Below are positions 1,894 through 62,281 of a DNA stretch of 64,000 nt, piece after piece (positions within the stretch are counted from its first letter, which is position 1; every line of letters starts with the position of its first letter). This DNA comes from Candidatus Vecturithrix granuli. GTDB lineage: Bacteria > Moduliflexota > Moduliflexia > Moduliflexales > Moduliflexaceae. The notes below the pieces were generated by a model. That model did not search any database and was not told the DNA's origin. It saw only the letters and a list, made by a program, of their open reading frames with translations. A program made the position numbers and the translations under genes. The DNA is taken from contig DF820463.1 in assembly GCA_000739535.1 (NCBI GenBank), positions 763,899-827,898 on the forward strand. Reading direction: 5' to 3'.

Positions 1894-3429
1894 TCATATT
1901 TCTCGCTCACGTTTACGAAGATAGCTGCTGATGTCTTGAAACCGGAACTGGTCGAGCAACTGCCGGACGTGCTGCACAAAGGGCAGATACATGCTCTCAT
2001 CCTGTTCGATTTTAGCAAGGAGTTTTTTTATTTCCGTGATCTGACCGGCCTGGGCAAACATGATCAGCGCATCCAGCATATCGGCCGGCGGAAACATGAG
2101 CGGCGCGTGTTGTTCAGGCGTCGGCGTTGCGCGAGAATGCTCTGCGTCTGGAACTTCAAGCTGCCATTCAAGCTGCAAATGTTGCTGCAAGGCGCGAAAG
2201 AGTTGATCGGCCTGCACCGGTTTGGGCAGAAAATCATCGCAGCCGGCCGAGAGGCTTTGGGCGCGATCCCATTCTAACACACTGGCGGATACCGCAATAA
2301 TTTTGATCGCGCCAAACTCAGAGCGGCGGCGGATGCAGCGAATCACTTCGAATCCGTCTAAGTTCGGCATGACCAGATCCAACAAGATCAGATGCGGACG
2401 GAACGCTTCAAGCTGCTGCAGCGCGTCATGCCCATCTGTGGCTTCGCAAGTCTGAAATCCGAGGGGGATCAGCAACCCTGTGAGCACATGGCGATTTTCC
2501 GGTTGATCATCCACGATTAAGAGACGCTGCGGCGGACCTTTATACCCGACGATCTTCCGAGGGGAAGGATACCCTGGTTGAACATCAGGCGCGGCTTCCG
2601 GCAAAGGCAGCTCAAGCCGAAAGACTGCGCCCTGTTCGACTGGGCTGCGAACCGTGAGGTCGCCGTGCATCAGACGCGCTAATTGACGGCTGATCGCCAA
2701 TCCAAGTCCTGCGCCCTCGGCAGCCTGACGGTCGCGGCGCAGTTGGTAAAAGGGTTCGAAAATATGCTCCAACTTCTCAGTCGGGATGCCGGGGCCGGTG
2801 TCGGCAACCTCAAAACATATTAATTGACACGTGGCAATTGATAATTGATCATTGTCAATTAATGTAGCCCGCAGCGTCACCTGCCCCTGCGCCGTAAATT
2901 TAATGGCGTTATTTAACAGGTTCAACAGGATTTGGCGCAGGCGTTTTTCATCACCCAATATCACAGAGGGTAAATTCTCGGCAAATTCAGAGTTGAGCCG
3001 CAATCCTTTCTGCTGCGCTCGTATTTGTACCAGAGTCATGAGATTACGCAGAAATGCGGTCAAATGAAAAGGTGATTCTGTCAGCGCGATTGTGCGGGCT
3101 TCGATTTTGGCAAGGTCGAGAATATCATTGATCATGTCCAACAAATGTTCGCCGCTGTGATGAATCACGGCGATCCCCTCTTGCTGATCCGGTTTCAGCC
3201 GGCGATCTCGTTTGAAAATCTGAGTATAGCCCAGAATCGCGTTTAAGGGAGTGCGCAACTCATGGCTCATGTTGGAGAGAAAGTCGCTTTTGGCCTGACT
3301 CGCCAGTTCGGCCTGTTCTTTGGCCTGGGCTAATTCCCGGGTGCGTTCCTGCACTAAGGCTTCCAGGACGCGATTACGGCGTTCGATCGCGCTTATGCGT
3401 CCGCGATAGCCCGTGTATGCGCCGATCAT
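1894..3429 (-). CDS. Hybrid histidine kinase, cytoplasmic half (HisKA, HATPase, receiver)
   Basis: Order: end of a membrane segment, coiled coil (residues 15-45), HisKA with phospho-acceptor His56 in NMSHELRTPLN, HATPase with N-box LLNLLNNAIKF and G-box GAGLGLAIS, receiver with Asp in LILLDLVMP, and a C-terminal helical tail. It has no initiation signal of its own. The ATG at 3429 lies inside a hydrophobic stretch with no Shine-Dalgarno. The same frame runs upstream through 12 sense codons to a TAA at 3466-3468 and then into the propeller sensor at 3466-5829. Together they would form one sensor kinase. Residues 190-204 (LIDNDQLSIATCQLI) are encoded by a palindromic AT-rich repeat inserted in the ATPase domain. 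Confidence 0.85.
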   Translation of the reverse strand: MIGAYTGYRGRISAIERRNRVLEALVQERTRELAQAKEQAELASQAKSDFLSNMSHELRTPLNAILGYTQIFKRDRRLKPDQQEGIAVIHHSGEHLLDMINDILDLAKIEARTIALTESPFHLTAFLRNLMTLVQIRAQQKGLRLNSEFAENLPSVILGDEKRLRQILLNLLNNAIKFTAQGQVTLRATLIDNDQLSIATCQLICFEVADTGPGIPTEKLEHIFEPFYQLRRDRQAAEGAGLGLAISRQLARLMHGDLTVRSPVEQGAVFRLELPLPEAAPDVQPGYPSPRKIVGYKGPPQRLLIVDDQPENRHVLTGLLIPLGFQTCEATDGHDALQQLEAFRPHLILLDLVMPNLDGFEVIRCIRRRSEFGAIKIIAVSASVLEWDRAQSLSAGCDDFLPKPVQADQLFRALQQHLQLEWQLEVPDAEHSRATPTPEQHAPLMFPPADMLDALIMFAQAGQITEIKKLLAKIEQDESMYLPFVQHVRQLLDQFRFQDISSYLRKREREI

Positions 3430-6890: not shown

Positions 6891-6964
6891 GAACGACAGG
6901 ATATTGATATAGAAGCGAATCTTCGCCCGAAGATTCTTGCTTCTATATCAATATCCTGTCGTTC
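6891..6964. repeat. Long near-perfect palindrome upstream of the secreted repeat gene
   Basis: Arms of about 35 bp (6891-6925 and about 6928-6964) pair completely except for a 2-base bulge, leaving a loop of about 2 bases. The element ends 16 bases before the start codon of the gene at 6874, immediately outside its Shine-Dalgarno. The right arm resembles that of the palindrome at 34583-34657: ATTCTTGCTT, an AT-rich middle, then TCCTGT. Confidence 0.9.
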
Positions 6965-10240: not shown

Positions 10241-10346
10241 CAAAATTATCTGCGCATTTTACCACGAAGACACAAAGACACGAAGTTGTTCTTCAGGCTG
10301 TTCTTCGTGTCTTCGTGTCTTCGTGGTAAAATAAAAATAATTTTGT
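10241..10346. repeat. Octad-repeat palindrome between divergent genes
   Basis: Arms 10256-10285 and 10303-10332 (30 bp, one mismatch) are built from the 8-bp word CACGAAGA or CACAAAGA in three copies. The pairing extends outward to CAAAATTAT (from about 10240) and ATAATTTTG. A smaller hairpin with CCCAGG and CCTGGG lies at about 10205-10240. The remaining intergenic DNA up to 10610 is AT-rich and presumably carries the promoter of the kinase gene, but no confident -35/-10 pair was found. Confidence 0.85.
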
Positions 10347-10610: not shown

Positions 10611-13600
10611 ATGCGCGTTTCGATTCGCACAAAATTGCTGGTGATCTGTATCGCCTTAGTGCTGTTGACAACCACAGGCATCTCGATTACCTATTACGTG
10701 CTGACCCGGCAGGATAAGCAGCGCGCCTCGCGCCAGCAGATTCAAATTGCCTTCAATATTATCCTCAATGATATTACGAAACGGATCAACACCTACACCG
10801 TGAGCGTGCGCCAGTTTTTACAAGAAAACGTGACCCTGCTCTGGGCCACTTACACCTATAGCCTGGATGACAGCGAAGAAGGCACGATTAAATTTTTGTT
10901 TGATCATTTTGCCGACGTGTCTGCGGAACTCAAACAGTTCGGACGGGTCGCCCTGGCAGATCGGGTGATGCTGTATGGCGCGAATAAGCGGCTGTTGGTG
11001 GTATATCAGCGCCTCAATGGTTATGAAACCAGGGGAGGTTACCTGGTTTCAGCCGCGGAAGGCAATAGATATCTTCCAATGGATAATCTTTCCGTGCAGG
11101 CCGAAATTACCTTTAGACGCAATAATTTAGCCATTCATGCCCAAAATACTGAATTACCGGATACGCCGTTTCCGCAGGGCGTCAGCGCTGTGTATGCCGG
11201 CGATGTTCCGGATGTGATTTCTGTCGGCCTGTTCCGGCTGCACCAGCAACTGGGCATCCGCGTAGTTGCCCCGATCTATCGCCGCGATCAGGTGCTGGGA
11301 ATTCTGGTTGGCGAAACTTTTTTTACCCAGGACATGATCGAAGAATATGCGTCGCTGAGCAAAACAGCCATCAACTTCTTTTCCGGCAATACGTTAAGTA
11401 TCGGTACCCTGGCGGTCCAATCCGAATTGACTCTGCTTGCCTCGGAACAGGAAATTCGCTGTCAGGATATGCTCAAAACCCGTCAAAGCATCGGCCTCAC
11501 GGCTATTCCTATCACCTTAGAAGATCAGAAATATTATCAGGGGCAGTGTACGCTCAACAATGGACGCGAAACTCTTGGCGCAATTACCGTGAACCTTTCT
11601 CAAGAAATCGAGCAGCAGGAAATTGCCAAAATTGTCAAAGCGGTGTCCACAATTTCAGGGGTTGGCATTCTCATCTGCGTGGTGCTTGTTTCCGGCGTTC
11701 TGGTGCCAAGATTTACCGGGCCGATCATCACTTTAACGAACGCAGCTCTGCGCATGGCGCAAGGAGATTTGAACCAGAAGATTGACACCAGCGGTCAGGA
11801 TGAATTAGGCACGCTCGCCAGGAGCTTTGCCCACATGCGCGACGAAATTCAGCAGAAAATTGAGGAACTGCAGCTTATGAACACCGAGCTTGATCAACGG
11901 GTCGAAGAACGGACAGCCGAAGTGGTGCGCCAGAAGTATATTTTAGACACTTTTATGGAAACCGTGCCGGATCGCATTTACTTTAAAGACTGCCAGGGGC
12001 GCATTACCAGGGCAAACAAAGCTCATGCCAGCCGCATGGGAGTCCAGGATCCCTTACAAGAAATCGGGAAAACCGATTTTGATTTTTTCCCCCATGAGGA
12101 TGCGCAGCGGCGCTATGAACAAGAACAGGAGATTCTGCGCACGGGGATGCCGTTGATCGGCATGGAAGAACAACGCAAATGGCCTGACGGACATGAAGAA
12201 TGGTCACTTGTCACCAAGATGCCGCTGCGCAATGAGCATGGAGAGATTATTGGAACGTTTGGCGTCTCGCGTGACATTACGGAGTTGAAGCACACAGAAG
12301 ACGCGCTGCGCCATGCCAAGAACGCAGCTGAAGCGGCGAACCGCGCCAAAAGTGAATTTCTCGCGAATATGAGTCACGAACTGCGTACTCCGCTCAATGT
12401 GATCCTGGGGCTGACGCAGATTATGACGCGCAATCCGCAAATTTTACAAGAAGAACGGGAAAATCTCGATATCATTCATCACAGCGGCGAACATTTGCTC
12501 ATGCTCATTAATAACGTGCTGGATCTGTCGAAGATTGAAGCGGGGCGTATCCCGATCAATGAGCAAGGGATTGATTTGTTTCGCCTGCTCGATGAATTGA
12601 AAGAGATGTTTGCGGTTAAGGCCGCTCCGAAACAGTTAGACCTGCTGTTTGACTATGCTGAGGATGTGCCGCAATATGTGCGCCTTGACGCCGGAAAATT
12701 GCGGCAGGTCTTGATTAATCTGCTCAATAATGCCGTAAAATTTACGGAAGCGGGCGGAGTGACGGTGAGAGTGAAGAAAGTATTCAGTAATCAGTATTCA
12801 GGAACCAGTAATCAGCATTCAATATCCAGTGAACAAGGTACGACTGATCACTGTTTACTGAATACTGAACACTGTTTACTGTCCTTTGAAATCGAAGATT
12901 CTGGGCCGGGCATTGCGCCTGAAGAGATGGCGATATTATTTGAAGCGTTCGCCCAGACCCAAACCGGTCGCAATGCGCAGGAGGGGACCGGGCTGGGACT
13001 GGCGATCAGTCAAAAATTCGTGCAATTGCTGGGTGGAACAATTGCGGTCGAGAGCGAATTACAGCATGGAACGACCTTTACCTTTACCATTCCGGTCACG
13101 CTTGCCAATGCGAGCGATGTCGTTTCATCGGCGGTCACGCAGCGTGTCATTGCTCTGCAACCCGATCAGCCGCGCTATCGGATTCTGGTGGTGGATGACA
13201 ATCCCCATAATCGCCGTTTGCTCGTCAAACTCCTTGTGCCCCTGGGTTTTGATGTGCGCGAAGCCGAAAACGGTCAGGATGGCATCCGACTGTGGACGGA
13301 ATTTGAGCCGCATCTCATCTGGATGGACCTCCGTATGCCAGGGATCGATGGTTATGAAGCTATCAGGAGAATTCGGAGTGAGGAATCAGGAATGAGGAAT
13401 GAAGAGAACGTTTCACTTCCAGATTCCAGAATCCAGAATCCTCATTGCATTATCATTGCCCTGACAGCAAGCAGTTTTGAGGATGAACGCGAACATGTAC
13501 TGGCCGCAGGCTGCGATGATTTTTTACGTAAACCCTTCCGGGAAACCGAAATTTTTGACTTGCTGCATACCTATCTCGGAATTTGCTATGTGTATGAAGA

Positions 13601-13847
13601 ACCGTTGCAATCAGTGGACAAAAAAACAGACCGAGCGATTGGAGACCTGCTGACGCCTGCGATCCTGGCGACCTTGCCTCCGGCTCTGTATGCTGACTTA
13701 CAGCAGGCGGTGAATGTTACAGATCCGGGCATGGTGCACCAGCTTCTCTCAAAAGTGCGTGAGCATGATTCTGATCTGGCCGATGCTCTGCACCAATTAG
13801 TGCAGGAGTTTCGTTTTGATATTTTACAAACATTGTTTGAAGTTTAA
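10611..13847 (+). CDS. Hybrid histidine kinase with periplasmic sensor, HAMP, PAS, HisKA, HATPase and receiver
   Basis: Order: N-terminal membrane helix (about 7-29), periplasmic sensor (about 30-340), second helix (about 345-366), HAMP (about 367-420), coiled coil, PAS/PAC (about 440-565), HisKA with His589 in NMSHELRTPLN, HATPase (N-box LINLLNNAVKF, G-box GTGLGLAIS), receiver with Asp906 in LIWMDLRMP, and a helical tail. The start has GGGGGAGGG upstream. The sigma54 activator at 13969 follows and is the likely partner. Two palindromic repeats are embedded in frame: 12780-12881 (34 codons, ATPase domain) and 13374-13448 (25 codons, receiver). A short hairpin lies at 11025-11050. All phospho-transfer residues are kept, so the kinase may be functional. 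Confidence 0.9.
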   Translation: MRVSIRTKLLVICIALVLLTTTGISITYYVLTRQDKQRASRQQIQIAFNIILNDITKRINTYTVSVRQFLQENVTLLWATYTYSLDDSEEGTIKFLFDHFADVSAELKQFGRVALADRVMLYGANKRLLVVYQRLNGYETRGGYLVSAAEGNRYLPMDNLSVQAEITFRRNNLAIHAQNTELPDTPFPQGVSAVYAGDVPDVISVGLFRLHQQLGIRVVAPIYRRDQVLGILVGETFFTQDMIEEYASLSKTAINFFSGNTLSIGTLAVQSELTLLASEQEIRCQDMLKTRQSIGLTAIPITLEDQKYYQGQCTLNNGRETLGAITVNLSQEIEQQEIAKIVKAVSTISGVGILICVVLVSGVLVPRFTGPIITLTNAALRMAQGDLNQKIDTSGQDELGTLARSFAHMRDEIQQKIEELQLMNTELDQRVEERTAEVVRQKYILDTFMETVPDRIYFKDCQGRITRANKAHASRMGVQDPLQEIGKTDFDFFPHEDAQRRYEQEQEILRTGMPLIGMEEQRKWPDGHEEWSLVTKMPLRNEHGEIIGTFGVSRDITELKHTEDALRHAKNAAEAANRAKSEFLANMSHELRTPLNVILGLTQIMTRNPQILQEERENLDIIHHSGEHLLMLINNVLDLSKIEAGRIPINEQGIDLFRLLDELKEMFAVKAAPKQLDLLFDYAEDVPQYVRLDAGKLRQVLINLLNNAVKFTEAGGVTVRVKKVFSNQYSGTSNQHSISSEQGTTDHCLLNTEHCLLSFEIEDSGPGIAPEEMAILFEAFAQTQTGRNAQEGTGLGLAISQKFVQLLGGTIAVESELQHGTTFTFTIPVTLANASDVVSSAVTQRVIALQPDQPRYRILVVDDNPHNRRLLVKLLVPLGFDVREAENGQDGIRLWTEFEPHLIWMDLRMPGIDGYEAIRRIRSEESGMRNEENVSLPDSRIQNPHCIIIALTASSFEDEREHVLAAGCDDFLRKPFRETEIFDLLHTYLGICYVYEEPLQSVDKKTDRAIGDLLTPAILATLPPALYADLQQAVNVTDPGMVHQLLSKVREHDSDLADALHQLVQEFRFDILQTLFEV
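11025..11050. repeat. Short hairpin inside the kinase sensor domain
   Basis: GAAACCAGG (11025-11033) and CCTGGTTTC (11042-11050) pair perfectly around an 8-base loop and encode residues within YETRGGYLVS. The same word forms the inner hairpin at 5918-5952, outside genes. Confidence 0.6.
12780..12881. repeat. In-frame heptad-repeat palindrome inside the ATPase domain
   Basis: The left half is a run of heptads of the form CAGTAAT / CAGTATT / CAGCATT. The right half is the complementary run CTGTTTA / CTGAATA / CTGAACA. Length is 102 bp, exactly 34 codons (residues 724-757), with no stop. It separates VTVRVKK from LSFEIEDSGPGI, which are close together in ordinary kinases. Confidence 0.85.
13374..13448. 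repeat. In-frame heptad-repeat palindrome inside the receiver domain
   Basis: Left heptads are GGAATCA / GGAATGA; right heptads are TTCCAGA / ATCCAGA. The 75 bp equal 25 codons and sit between YEAIRRI and IIIALTA, which are normally joined by a short loop with PIIALTA. The arms are about 70% complementary. Confidence 0.8.
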
Positions 13848-13852
13848 CAAGA

Positions 13853-13963
13853 GAACCTCACGCAAAGCCGCAAAGATCGCAAAGAAATGAGAAAACTAAG
13901 GGGTTGATAGAATGAGGTTGTCGCTATGATTTCCTGGCGTACTTTGCGGCTTTGCGTGAGAAC
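13853..13963. repeat. CGCAAAG-type palindrome between kinase and regulator genes
   Basis: The left arm, from 13853, contains CTCACGCAAAGCCGCAAAG. The right arm, about 13942-13963, contains CTTTGCGGCTTTGCGTGAG. The element fills the gap between the kinase stop (13847) and the regulator start (13969). The same word builds the palindrome at 59973-60049. Confidence 0.85.
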
Positions 13964-17150: not shown

Positions 17151-17252
17151 TATAAGCAATCCTAAATCATTTGTAACATGTCACTTCGACTCCGCTCAGT
17201 GACCGGGCGGCTGTCGAGCGGAGTCGAGACACAACTAATTTAGGATCGCTAT
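17151..17252. repeat. Palindrome with CTTCGACTCCGCTC core
   Basis: Outer arms around AGCAATCCTAAAT and ATTTAGGATCGCT (17154-17249) enclose CTTCGACTCCGCTC paired with GAGCGGAGTCGAG. The core is related to the two elements at 18528-18700. Confidence 0.8.
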
Positions 17253-17585
17253 ATTCAGTATTCAGTTTTCAGTGGTAAGTAGCTGGCTGATTACTGACTC
17301 ATGTTACGCTCTCCTGTTCTTTACCGCGTAGCGGTTACACTATTGTAGCATAGGGGTTGCCCCCTGATCGCTCTTACCGCATAGCGGTTGCAGTCTTGGA
17401 GAGTTCACGGCCGACGGAGTCGCCGTGCCCTGTAAGGATTGAACATCACTGTTTCTGTAACCGCTACGCGGTAGGAGATTCTGGGGATGCCGCATACTCC
17501 TACAATACTGCAACCGCTACGCGGTAAAGAATCTCTGTGTAACGTGAGTTACTGAATACTGAGTGCTAAATACTCAATAGAGGTA
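17253..17585. repeat. Composite palindrome with four copies of TACCGCGTAGCGGTTA
   Basis: Two copies of TACCGC(G/A)TAGCGGTT (about 17321, 17371) face two inverted copies, AACCGCTACGCGGTA (about 17458, 17511). Each copy is itself a hairpin. The outer flanks carry CAGTATT-type heptads on the left and ACTGAATACTGAG on the right. The element ends at the ribosome site of the gene at 17592. Nothing protein-like was seen in 17134-17591. Confidence 0.8.
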
Positions 17586-29663: not shown

Positions 29664-29765
29664 CTAAAGGGACTCAGGGGACTCAAGGGGCTAAAGGGAC
29701 TAAACCTGGAAATGCTTTAAACTTTCGTCACTTTAGTCCCTTCAGTCCTTTTAGTCCGTTGATTC
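29659..29765. repeat. Nonad-repeat palindrome between permease and mannosidase genes
   Basis: The left half repeats a 9-bp word of the form GGGACTAAA about five times. The right half repeats its complement, TTTAGTCCC, about four times. It begins at the permease stop and ends one base before the ATG at 29767, which therefore has no ordinary Shine-Dalgarno. Confidence 0.85.
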
Positions 29766-34582: not shown

Positions 34583-34657
34583 AAACTACAGGAATGGTAT
34601 ATAAGCAAGAATGTATTTTGACATTGAATTCTTGCTTATATACCATTCCTGTAGTTT
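34583..34657. repeat. Perfect 30-bp-arm palindrome before the second GH38 gene
   Basis: The arms 34583-34612 and 34628-34657 are exact complements around a 15-base loop. It ends 13 bases before the GH38 start. It is related in sequence to the element at 6891-6964. Confidence 0.95.
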
Positions 34658-50682: not shown

Positions 50683-50745
50683 AGTCATCTTCAGTCATCA
50701 GTCGTCAGTATTCTGACTGATGACTGGTCACTGATGACTGAATTT
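50683..50745. repeat. Heptad-repeat palindrome upstream of rpe
   Basis: CAGTCAT / CAGTCGT / CAGTATT words face CTGACTG and ATGACTG words. It lies directly upstream of the rpe start and is of the same type as the in-gene repeat at 12780-12881. Confidence 0.75.
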
Positions 50746-50783
50746 TGGTAGTGGTGAAATGGTAAGTAATGAATGTCGGAACA

Positions 50784-57200: not shown

Positions 57201-58497
57201 CGGCAGGCGCGATTACCCGCTGTGAAGCGTTCCTTGATAGTTTGGAAAATGTGCGGGATCGTCAATATCCGCGCTATGACCGCACATTCAAACAAGGCCG
57301 GACAGATTTGGCCGGACGAACCATGTATATTCCTTACATGGGCGATCATGCCTACGTCCTGGCTGCCGCGATTCGCGGGTTAGGAATTCCCGCTGAGGTC
57401 TTCGGGGTTTCTGATGAAGAAAGCGTTGAATACGGACGAAAATATACGACCGGCAAAGAATGTTATCCGTTGATCGTCACGACCGGGGATATGATTAAGA
57501 AAGTCAACGAACCGGGTTTTGATCCGAGTAAGGCGATTTTCTTTATGCCATCCGGAACAGGCCCCTGCCGTTTTGGACAGTACAACATGTTTCAGCGCCT
57601 GGTCATGCAGGAACTTGGGCATGATATTCCGATCATGGCCCCCAATCAGGATTCCAGTTTTTATAAGGAACTTGGGGCTGTCGGGAAAAATATTTCAAAA
57701 ATCGGCTGGATGGCAATGGTCGGCGGCGATATTCTGTACAAAGCCCTGTTCGATACGCGGCCTTATGAGGTCAATAAGGGAGAAACGCTTGCCGTTTATC
57801 AACGTTCCTTGCAACGGCTGAGCGATGCGCTCGAATTCGGAGGAAATGCGTATCAGTCCATGGAACAAAGCGCGGCAGATTTCAGAACGATCAAGGTTGA
57901 TAAATCGCAGAAAAAACCGACCATAGGAATTGTCGGTGAAATTTATGTCCGTACTCACGGCTTCTGTAACGACTCGATTATTGATAAAGTTGAAGCTTTG
58001 GGTGGAACGGTCTGGCTGGCGCCCTTGATGGAATGGATTTACTACACGAATTATACCCGGATGCTCCATGCAAAGCAAAACAGAGAGTATTTTAAATATT
58101 TCCAGAACATGGTGGTCGAAAAAGCGCAAGTCATGATTGAACATAAGCTTGCTAAGCCGTTTCACGGCATTATTGACTATCTGGAAGAAACCAATACGCA
58201 TGGCATTCTGAAATATGCGGATCAGTATGTTGACCGCAGTTTTGAAGGGGAAACCGTGTTAAGTGTCGGCAAAACGATTGATTATTATCATCAGGGCTTG
58301 AGCGGCGTGATTAATGTGATGCCCTTCGGCTGCATGCCCGGCACGATTGTCACCGCGCTTTTAAAGAAAATTCGGGAAGACTACGAGAATCTCCCGGCGA
58401 TTTCACTTGCTTACGACGGAACACAGCATGCCGGAACGGACACCCGCCTGGAAGCCTTTATGCACCAGGTAAAACAGTATATGAATATTCGAAATAA

Positions 58498-58501
<4 letters not shown>
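54272..58501 (+). CDS. Giant acyl-CoA dehydratase activase, two BadF/HgdC ATPase domains plus DUF2229/HgdB-like region
   Basis: 1409 residues. Two HgdC-type ASKHA ATPase domains (about 8-285 and 320-590) each start with GIDIGSVSVDAL or GVDVGSISTNVV. Each has both Cys that bridge the 4Fe-4S cluster of a dimeric activator (Cys138/Cys178 and Cys456/Cys496). A Cys-rich knot (FECQHCSNLCEIHE) leads into DUF2229 and an HgdB-like C-terminal half. Such proteins use ATP to inject low-potential electrons into 2-hydroxyacyl-CoA dehydratases or benzoyl-CoA-type reductases. No dehydratase subunits adjoin. The ATG at 54272 is chosen; upstream TTG codons are possible starts. Confidence 0.88.
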
Positions 58502-59931
<1,430 letters not shown>

Positions 59932-62059: not shown

Positions 62060-62077
62060 AATTTCCTCCTGTGAAAA

Positions 62078-62140
62078 TGTAGCGCGAAACTCCAGTTTCG
62101 CGTATCATTGATAGCCGCGAAACTGGAGTTTCGCGCTACA
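62078..62140. repeat. TGTAGCG palindrome, copy 1
   Basis: Perfect 25-bp arms (62078-62102, 62116-62140). Each arm contains CGCGAAACTCCAGTTTCGCG, itself a 9-bp hairpin. It lies upstream of nagB. Confidence 0.95.
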
Positions 62141-62216
62141 TCCATCTTCCCCTGACCATAAAATTTTTATTCGCCGTGGTGTGTTTGCCAAAACGAATGA
62201 ATAACTCCTGTGAAAC

Positions 62217-62281
62217 TGTAGCGCGAAACTCCAGTTTCGCGCACCAGTAATACGGCCGCGAAACTGGAGTTTCGCGCTACA
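62217..62281. repeat. TGTAGCG palindrome, copy 2
   Basis: The same arms as copy 1 (62217-62241, 62257-62281) with a different loop. The left flank CTCCTGTGAAA is shared with copy 1, where it overlaps the nagB ribosome site. This points to duplication of a segment rather than two independent insertions. The rest of 62060-62327 has no gene. Confidence 0.95.

Follow-up and report, generated by a model that had tools for sequence, protein, structure and literature searches.

A hybrid histidine kinase gene of Candidatus Vecturithrix granuli contains, in frame, a 102-bp palindrome built from 7-bp words (heptads), and this feature very probably stems from a heptad-hairpin repeat that is dispersed and as a rule non-coding, one copy of which lies in a length-tolerant loop of the kinase. 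The gene is located in a stretch of 64,000 nucleotides of contig DF820463.1, referred to here as the window, and coordinates given without a further label are positions of this window. In-frame palindromic repeats had been described in proteins of Rickettsia and some other groups, and a cyanobacterial intron was known to contain heptad hairpins; here, paralogous sensor kinases have several heptad families in one and the same loop, and a CarA of another phylum has a CAGT-type palindrome.

An in-frame palindrome of degenerate heptads

The kinase gene (10611..13847, plus strand) encodes a protein of 1078 aa that includes HAMP, PAS, HisKA, HATPase_c (aa 693-830) and receiver domains. The palindrome, which belongs to the CAGTNNT/ACTGNNN word family, occupies positions 12780..12881 of the plus strand (aa 724-757), at the tip of a beta-hairpin that precedes the DSGPGI motif. 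On the same strand, its left arm (12776..12815) consists of CAGTNNT words and its right arm (12844..12883) of ACTGNNN words, and the two are 80% complementary over 40 nt. The fold energy of the element is −34.2 kcal/mol (z −4.5), a value equalled by none of 200 dinucleotide shuffles, and 62 of 95 positions are identical at a lag of seven (at most 42 in 20,000 shuffles). A preliminary description of this DNA had reported an in-frame palindrome of 7-bp words at this place in the histidine kinase, and the frame, the pairing of the arms, the fold and the lag-7 identity show that it is real; the period, which had been called strict, is instead clear but degenerate (65% identity). The reported length of 34 codons free of stops also holds: the 102 bp begin at a codon start (12780) and contain no stop in the frame of the gene, and the other five frames contain from one to five. 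No empty orthologous allele was found by which to place the exact borders of the insert.

The reading frame has left a footprint on the heptads. A 7-bp repeat cycles through the three frames in 21 bp, so that one third of the heptads would yield TAA or TGA; the heptads of the insert that are in the phase to do so read TAT, CAT, TGT and TGT instead, whereas the out-of-phase heptads keep TAA/TGA. In the right arm, the heptads with TGN in frame read ACTGTTT. Of 744 frames of comparable elements, only 93 are open. This pattern is consistent with selection for a readable gene and a functional kinase, in which only copies whose length is a multiple of three and which are free of in-frame stops would have been retained.

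The insert lies in a predicted disordered loop

The 34 residues are located between the segments GGVTVRVKK and SFEIEDSGPGI. It had been proposed that the motifs VTVRVKK and FEIEDSGPGI, which the insert separates, lie close together in ordinary kinases; this agrees with the solved structures 7z8n and 6qrj, in which the loop has 8-9 residues as compared with 33-36 in the window kinase. Among 31 kinases sampled from this genome, the stretch from the KFT motif to the next strand ranges from 18 to 46 residues; the window kinase is at the longest end of this range, and the shortest loops are 28 residues shorter than its own. An AlphaFold model was obtained from the window protein and 13 relatives, which are 44-59% identical to it across the kinase core (mean pLDDT 83). 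In this model the strands at fragment residues 150-158 and 188-197 flank residues 163-185, which have a pLDDT below 50 and fall wholly within the insert; the insert is thus predicted to lengthen a beta-hairpin as a disordered loop.

In the alignment with homologues that the preliminary description had suggested, here made with paralogues, the window kinase differs from all of them at this position: the paralogous kinases either do not have the 34 residues or have unrelated residues in their place. Distant homologues with the same 34 residues, which had been named as the sign of an ordinary protein segment, were not seen among the kinases examined. The nearest relatives are paralogues, and no true orthologue with an empty site was found among the 59 genomes searched; for this reason the term insertion is based on comparison with paralogues and on the repeat character of the DNA.

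An ordinary functional segment of the protein, encoded by DNA that happens to be repetitive, would also be in frame and leave the kinase motifs intact, and plant hybrid kinases have long natural insertions near this place (gap in 7p8e). This reading is highly improbable: the residues are common to no paralogue and are predicted to be disordered, the loops of sister kinases bear unrelated word families, and the insert must be considered repeat DNA because, as described below, it belongs to a dispersed extragenic family. The product would probably be a kinase with an extra flexible loop of 34 residues and a near-neutral effect on catalysis.

Different word families occupy the same loop

Two other heptad palindromes of the window, which the preliminary description did not list, are also located in kinase genes and belong to other word families. 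The second in-frame palindrome of the same gene (13372..13446, plus strand) is made of GGAATGA-type words and lies in a loop of the receiver domain (RSEESGMRNEENVSLPDSRIQNPH); its fold has a z of −2.3, and its lag-7 identity of 42/67 was reached in none of 2000 shuffles. The other one (2819..2863, minus strand), of the AATTGAC type, is found in the HATPase loop of a second hybrid kinase (gene 1894-3429, minus strand). In the host genome the kinase at C21:170503 has a GGAATGA-type palindrome in the HATPase loop and another one in the receiver domain, and, besides 2819-2863, other word families are present in frame in the HATPase loops of the kinases C21:422753 and L024. Some of these same-loop palindromes are individually weak as inverted repeats (3 to 11 of 200 shuffles equal them), and their 7-bp period is still significant. 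Taken together, 5 of 18 HATPase loops have a fold z of −2.5 or less, whereas among 134 control windows from other parts of these genes only 4 do (Fisher p 0.0013).

The occurrence of different families at one position argues for independent arrivals, or replacement of words, at a tolerant site. The recurrence at this loop would reflect how well the site tolerates insertions, and not a function that the peptides have in common.

We also considered an error of assembly or binning, given that the genome is a scaffolded draft with runs of N and a listed contamination of 10.75%. There is next to no chance that this explains the insert, since independent in-frame cases occur in several paralogues and in other species, and both the frame and the kinase motifs are intact on both sides.

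The insert belongs to a family dispersed in the host genome

The search of the genome for further copies that the preliminary description had suggested, with the insert as DNA query, yielded about 25-30 dispersed loci, and the best full-length partner is 74% identical. A strict CAGT palindrome pattern matched 10 distinct loci in the 8.4-Mb genome, its reversed-word control matched none, and the pattern was absent from the 19 other genomes searched, three of the same order included. CAGT copies often occupy the whole gap that follows a stop codon, up to the ribosome-binding site of the next gene.

One of these copies is in the window (50684..50747, plus strand), on the 5' side of a ribulose-phosphate 3-epimerase gene, and has a core (CAGTCAGAATACTG) common to other copies. 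The preliminary description had placed a repeat of the same word type at 50683-50745, outside genes; the word type is indeed the same and the fold is strong (z −5.3), and its position is more precisely directly upstream of the start of the epimerase gene or just overlapping it. The core CAGTCAGNATACTG was found at nine sites with at most one mismatch, the window element 50684-50747 among them. The centre of the 12780-12881 copy is common to no other copy. A degenerate intergenic relative of the CAGT family is located at 17249..17300 (plus strand), with a weak fold (z −1.5).

Hairpins and periods were also counted in a sample of 1.59 Mb (C21 and part of C19, 19% of the genome), with gene calls made by a simple codon-usage script. 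Period-7 arrays numbered 28, against none in the shuffled sequence, and were above every other period tested from 4 to 21. Of 441 hairpins (5 in the shuffle), 347 were intergenic, 75 at a gene edge and 19 within predicted genes. The word families present in the genome include CAGTNNT, AATGTTG, AATTGTC, AGGAGTA and ATTGAAG.

The suggestion that the feature is a mobile or expanding element tolerated as a protein loop is therefore supported by the differences among paralogues, by the dispersed DNA and by the predicted lack of structure of the loop. The element would have arrived as a hairpin-forming unit copied from elsewhere, and its arms may gain, lose and exchange heptads by 7-nt slippage or by fold-back copying; within genes, copies would persist only if a loop at that place is tolerated by the protein and the reading frame is kept open. 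Neither a target-site duplication nor a mobilising enzyme was found in the host genome.

Related elements in other genomes and phages

In a collection of bacterial genomes the strict CAGT pattern was found in at least 116 stretches. Among the matches listed, the record titles name Cyanobacteria, Chloroflexi, Planctomycetota, Bacteroidota, Acidobacteriota, Verrucomicrobiota/Kiritimatiellae, Alpha-, Beta- and Gammaproteobacteria, Deltaproteobacteria, Chlorobi, Nitrospirae, Actinobacteria and Ruminococcaceae; many of the records that carry the word are MAGs, and single taxon assignments may be wrong. In IMG/VR viral contigs, the CAGT word was found in 119 stretches and the reversed control in 3. 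The CAGT word family thus spans more than ten phyla as well as phages. Only the word is common to these elements, some of which contain runs of TAACTGATAACTGA: the lengths of the arms vary in steps of 7 nt across genomes, and the centres are diverse, with none shared across phyla.

Within Microcystis, dozens of copies have a common core and heptad arms that vary. With up to 3 mismatches allowed, each genome had 70-104 matches to the core GTGAACTGAAAACTNNCATCTGATAAC and none to the control. One orthologous site was compared in 12 Microcystis genomes, four of which have a CAGT element, four a different heptad-type sequence and four neither; these last four bear another sequence of 41 bp, so that the site is not cleanly empty in them. 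MITEs are defined by terminal inverted repeats together with a target-site duplication; the element has inverted repeats, and this Microcystis site offers no clean empty allele by which a duplication could be defined. The dispersal of the family, the cores common to its copies and the presence or absence of related elements in Microcystis together suggest that the repeat is mobile.

The main rival explanation is growth in place, in which a short inverted repeat that arose by chance in the loop would have lengthened seven nucleotides at a time through replication slippage and fold-back template switching, with no element coming from elsewhere. It would fit the private centre of the window copy, the mostly unique centres and variable arms of elements that across genomes have only the word in common, and a proposal of 7-nt slippage in literature to which PMC4679880 refers. 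We consider it rather unlikely, since it gives no account of the recurrence of the CAGT word at about 25-30 loci and in more than ten phyla, of the cores common to copies, or of the scarcity of the reversed word (0 in the host genome; 3 against 119 in viral contigs). A dispersed repeat copied into the kinase gene is the preferred reading.

In the loci L107-L222 and L325-L443, CAGT palindromes fit closely between genes. Of 128 palindromes in bacterial loci, as many as 82 lie within −20 to 40 bp of the 3' end of a gene, as compared with 6 if randomly placed; the first heptad often supplies the stop codon itself (TAGTGATC), which partly confounds the exact distance and leaves the gross enrichment standing. 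Only 5 of the 128 are inside ORFs, against 82 for random placement. These figures bear on the idea that the hairpin is kept for a role in the DNA of the kinase gene or in its mRNA (pausing, processing or stability). The stable fold would suit such a role, and hairpins of this kind sit elsewhere right after stop codons, the place of terminators or 3' stabilisers; however, their rarity inside ORFs suggests sites that are avoided rather than used, and for the kinase insert we regard this idea as quite improbable, the copied repeat being favoured here as well.

Eight stop-to-stop ORFs that run across CAGT palindromes elsewhere were candidates for further in-frame cases; only one of them (L204) was matched to a known protein, and the others may be chance ORFs. 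This is CarA, the small subunit of carbamoyl-phosphate synthase, of an alphaproteobacterial MAG, in which the in-frame palindrome encodes about 20 residues that E. coli CarA does not have. The same gene (L204 5576-6898, minus strand) seems to contain, beside the main palindrome, two or three heptad-derived segments (ISCQLRVASCQ, RNSQLATGD).

Comparison with known repeats

Rickettsia palindromic elements (RPEs), of about 100-150 bp, occur both between genes and in frame within conserved protein genes, where they are translated into additional residues that the protein tolerates; the Gmk protein that carries one was shown to be active (PMC10969869, PMC2229807). The kinase insert resembles them as an in-frame palindrome in a conserved protein gene whose relatives are also found outside genes. 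In contrast with RPEs, which have a conserved sequence and encoded peptide, here only the 7-bp word is kept, and the peptide and the centre vary from copy to copy; in addition, no 7-bp repeat structure is described for RPEs in these two papers. The RPE kind therefore fits in the tolerance of the host protein and fails on conserved sequence and peptide, because similarity exists only at the level of the heptads.

The arms of the P6b hairpin of the Nostoc tRNA-Leu intron are degenerate 7-nt repeats of the TDNGATT and NNTGAGT classes (PMC4476775). As in the kinase gene, complementary arms of such repeats lie at a tolerant loop position, and the length shifts in 7-nt steps as in elements of the window type. 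Replacement of one class by another also has its counterpart in the HATPase loop of the paralogous kinases and at the one intergenic site of Microcystis. The P6b hairpin differs in that it is part of a structured cyanobacterial RNA and uses other words, whereas the insert is in a protein gene. The best reading is that the insert is a non-autonomous, dispersing repeat that works like RPEs but is built like the Nostoc heptad hairpins.

Direct repeats of the heptamer TAACTGA have been described in Beggiatoaceae, Cyanobacteria and Bacteroidetes, for which horizontal transfer was suggested (MacGregor 2015, PMC4679880). They share the word family, given that TAACTGA is ACTGATA in another phase, and the insert has the ACTGNNN/CAGTNNN word in tandem as they do; they lie near gene starts and sometimes give LSVISYQ-type peptides in ORFs. 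They were described as direct repeats in a few groups; in contrast, the elements reported here are palindromes, span more than ten phyla and phages, and in some cases lie inside conserved domains. REP/REPIN sequences are small dispersed extragenic palindromes with no genes of their own, with a conserved sequence and an associated RAYT (PMC3116915). The CAGT elements are likewise small, dispersed, extragenic and devoid of genes; no CAGT element lies less than about 1.5 kb from any of the 12 Y1-type transposase (Y1_Tnp) loci of the host genome, and action in trans from afar is possible.

As a tentative proposal, to which we give somewhat less than even weight, the CAGT heptad hairpins of more than ten phyla and of their phages may all belong to a single, widespread class of repeat that is mobile but non-autonomous, or is generated by an enzyme; it would settle in the space that separates a stop codon from the next gene and at times, in frame, in protein loops; the same loop would be struck by different word families, and an enzyme or a replication process working in 7-nt steps would underlie them all. 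The in-frame copies serve as natural replicates for learning which protein loops can accept an insertion, and they raise a testable question about the origin and the spread of one 7-bp word among distant phyla and phages.

Additional observations

In the phage contigs L343, L348, L360 and L387, CAGT palindromes mark many of the gene junctions, in some cases nearly all, with as many as 13 in 11.5 kb; these contigs encode a tape measure protein, a head protease and a tail protein, and one has a match to a Mu-type transposase. In the host genome, in-frame intragenic palindromes without heptads were noticed at C21:408387-411788, C21:1092236-1095007 and C19:251982-258755 (peptides PSQEGN..PSWEGQ, PLLNQEG and KPGFSEKPGF). 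Further inverted repeats of the window that look dispersed (10256-10332, 13857-13960, 58497-58616, 29671-29765, 62077-62281, 34583-34657 and 6891-6964) show periods of about 7-9 bp or perfect arms of 25-30 nt; with word types such as ACGAAGACACAAAG, CGCAAAG and GGGACAAAA, they apparently represent several more repeat families.
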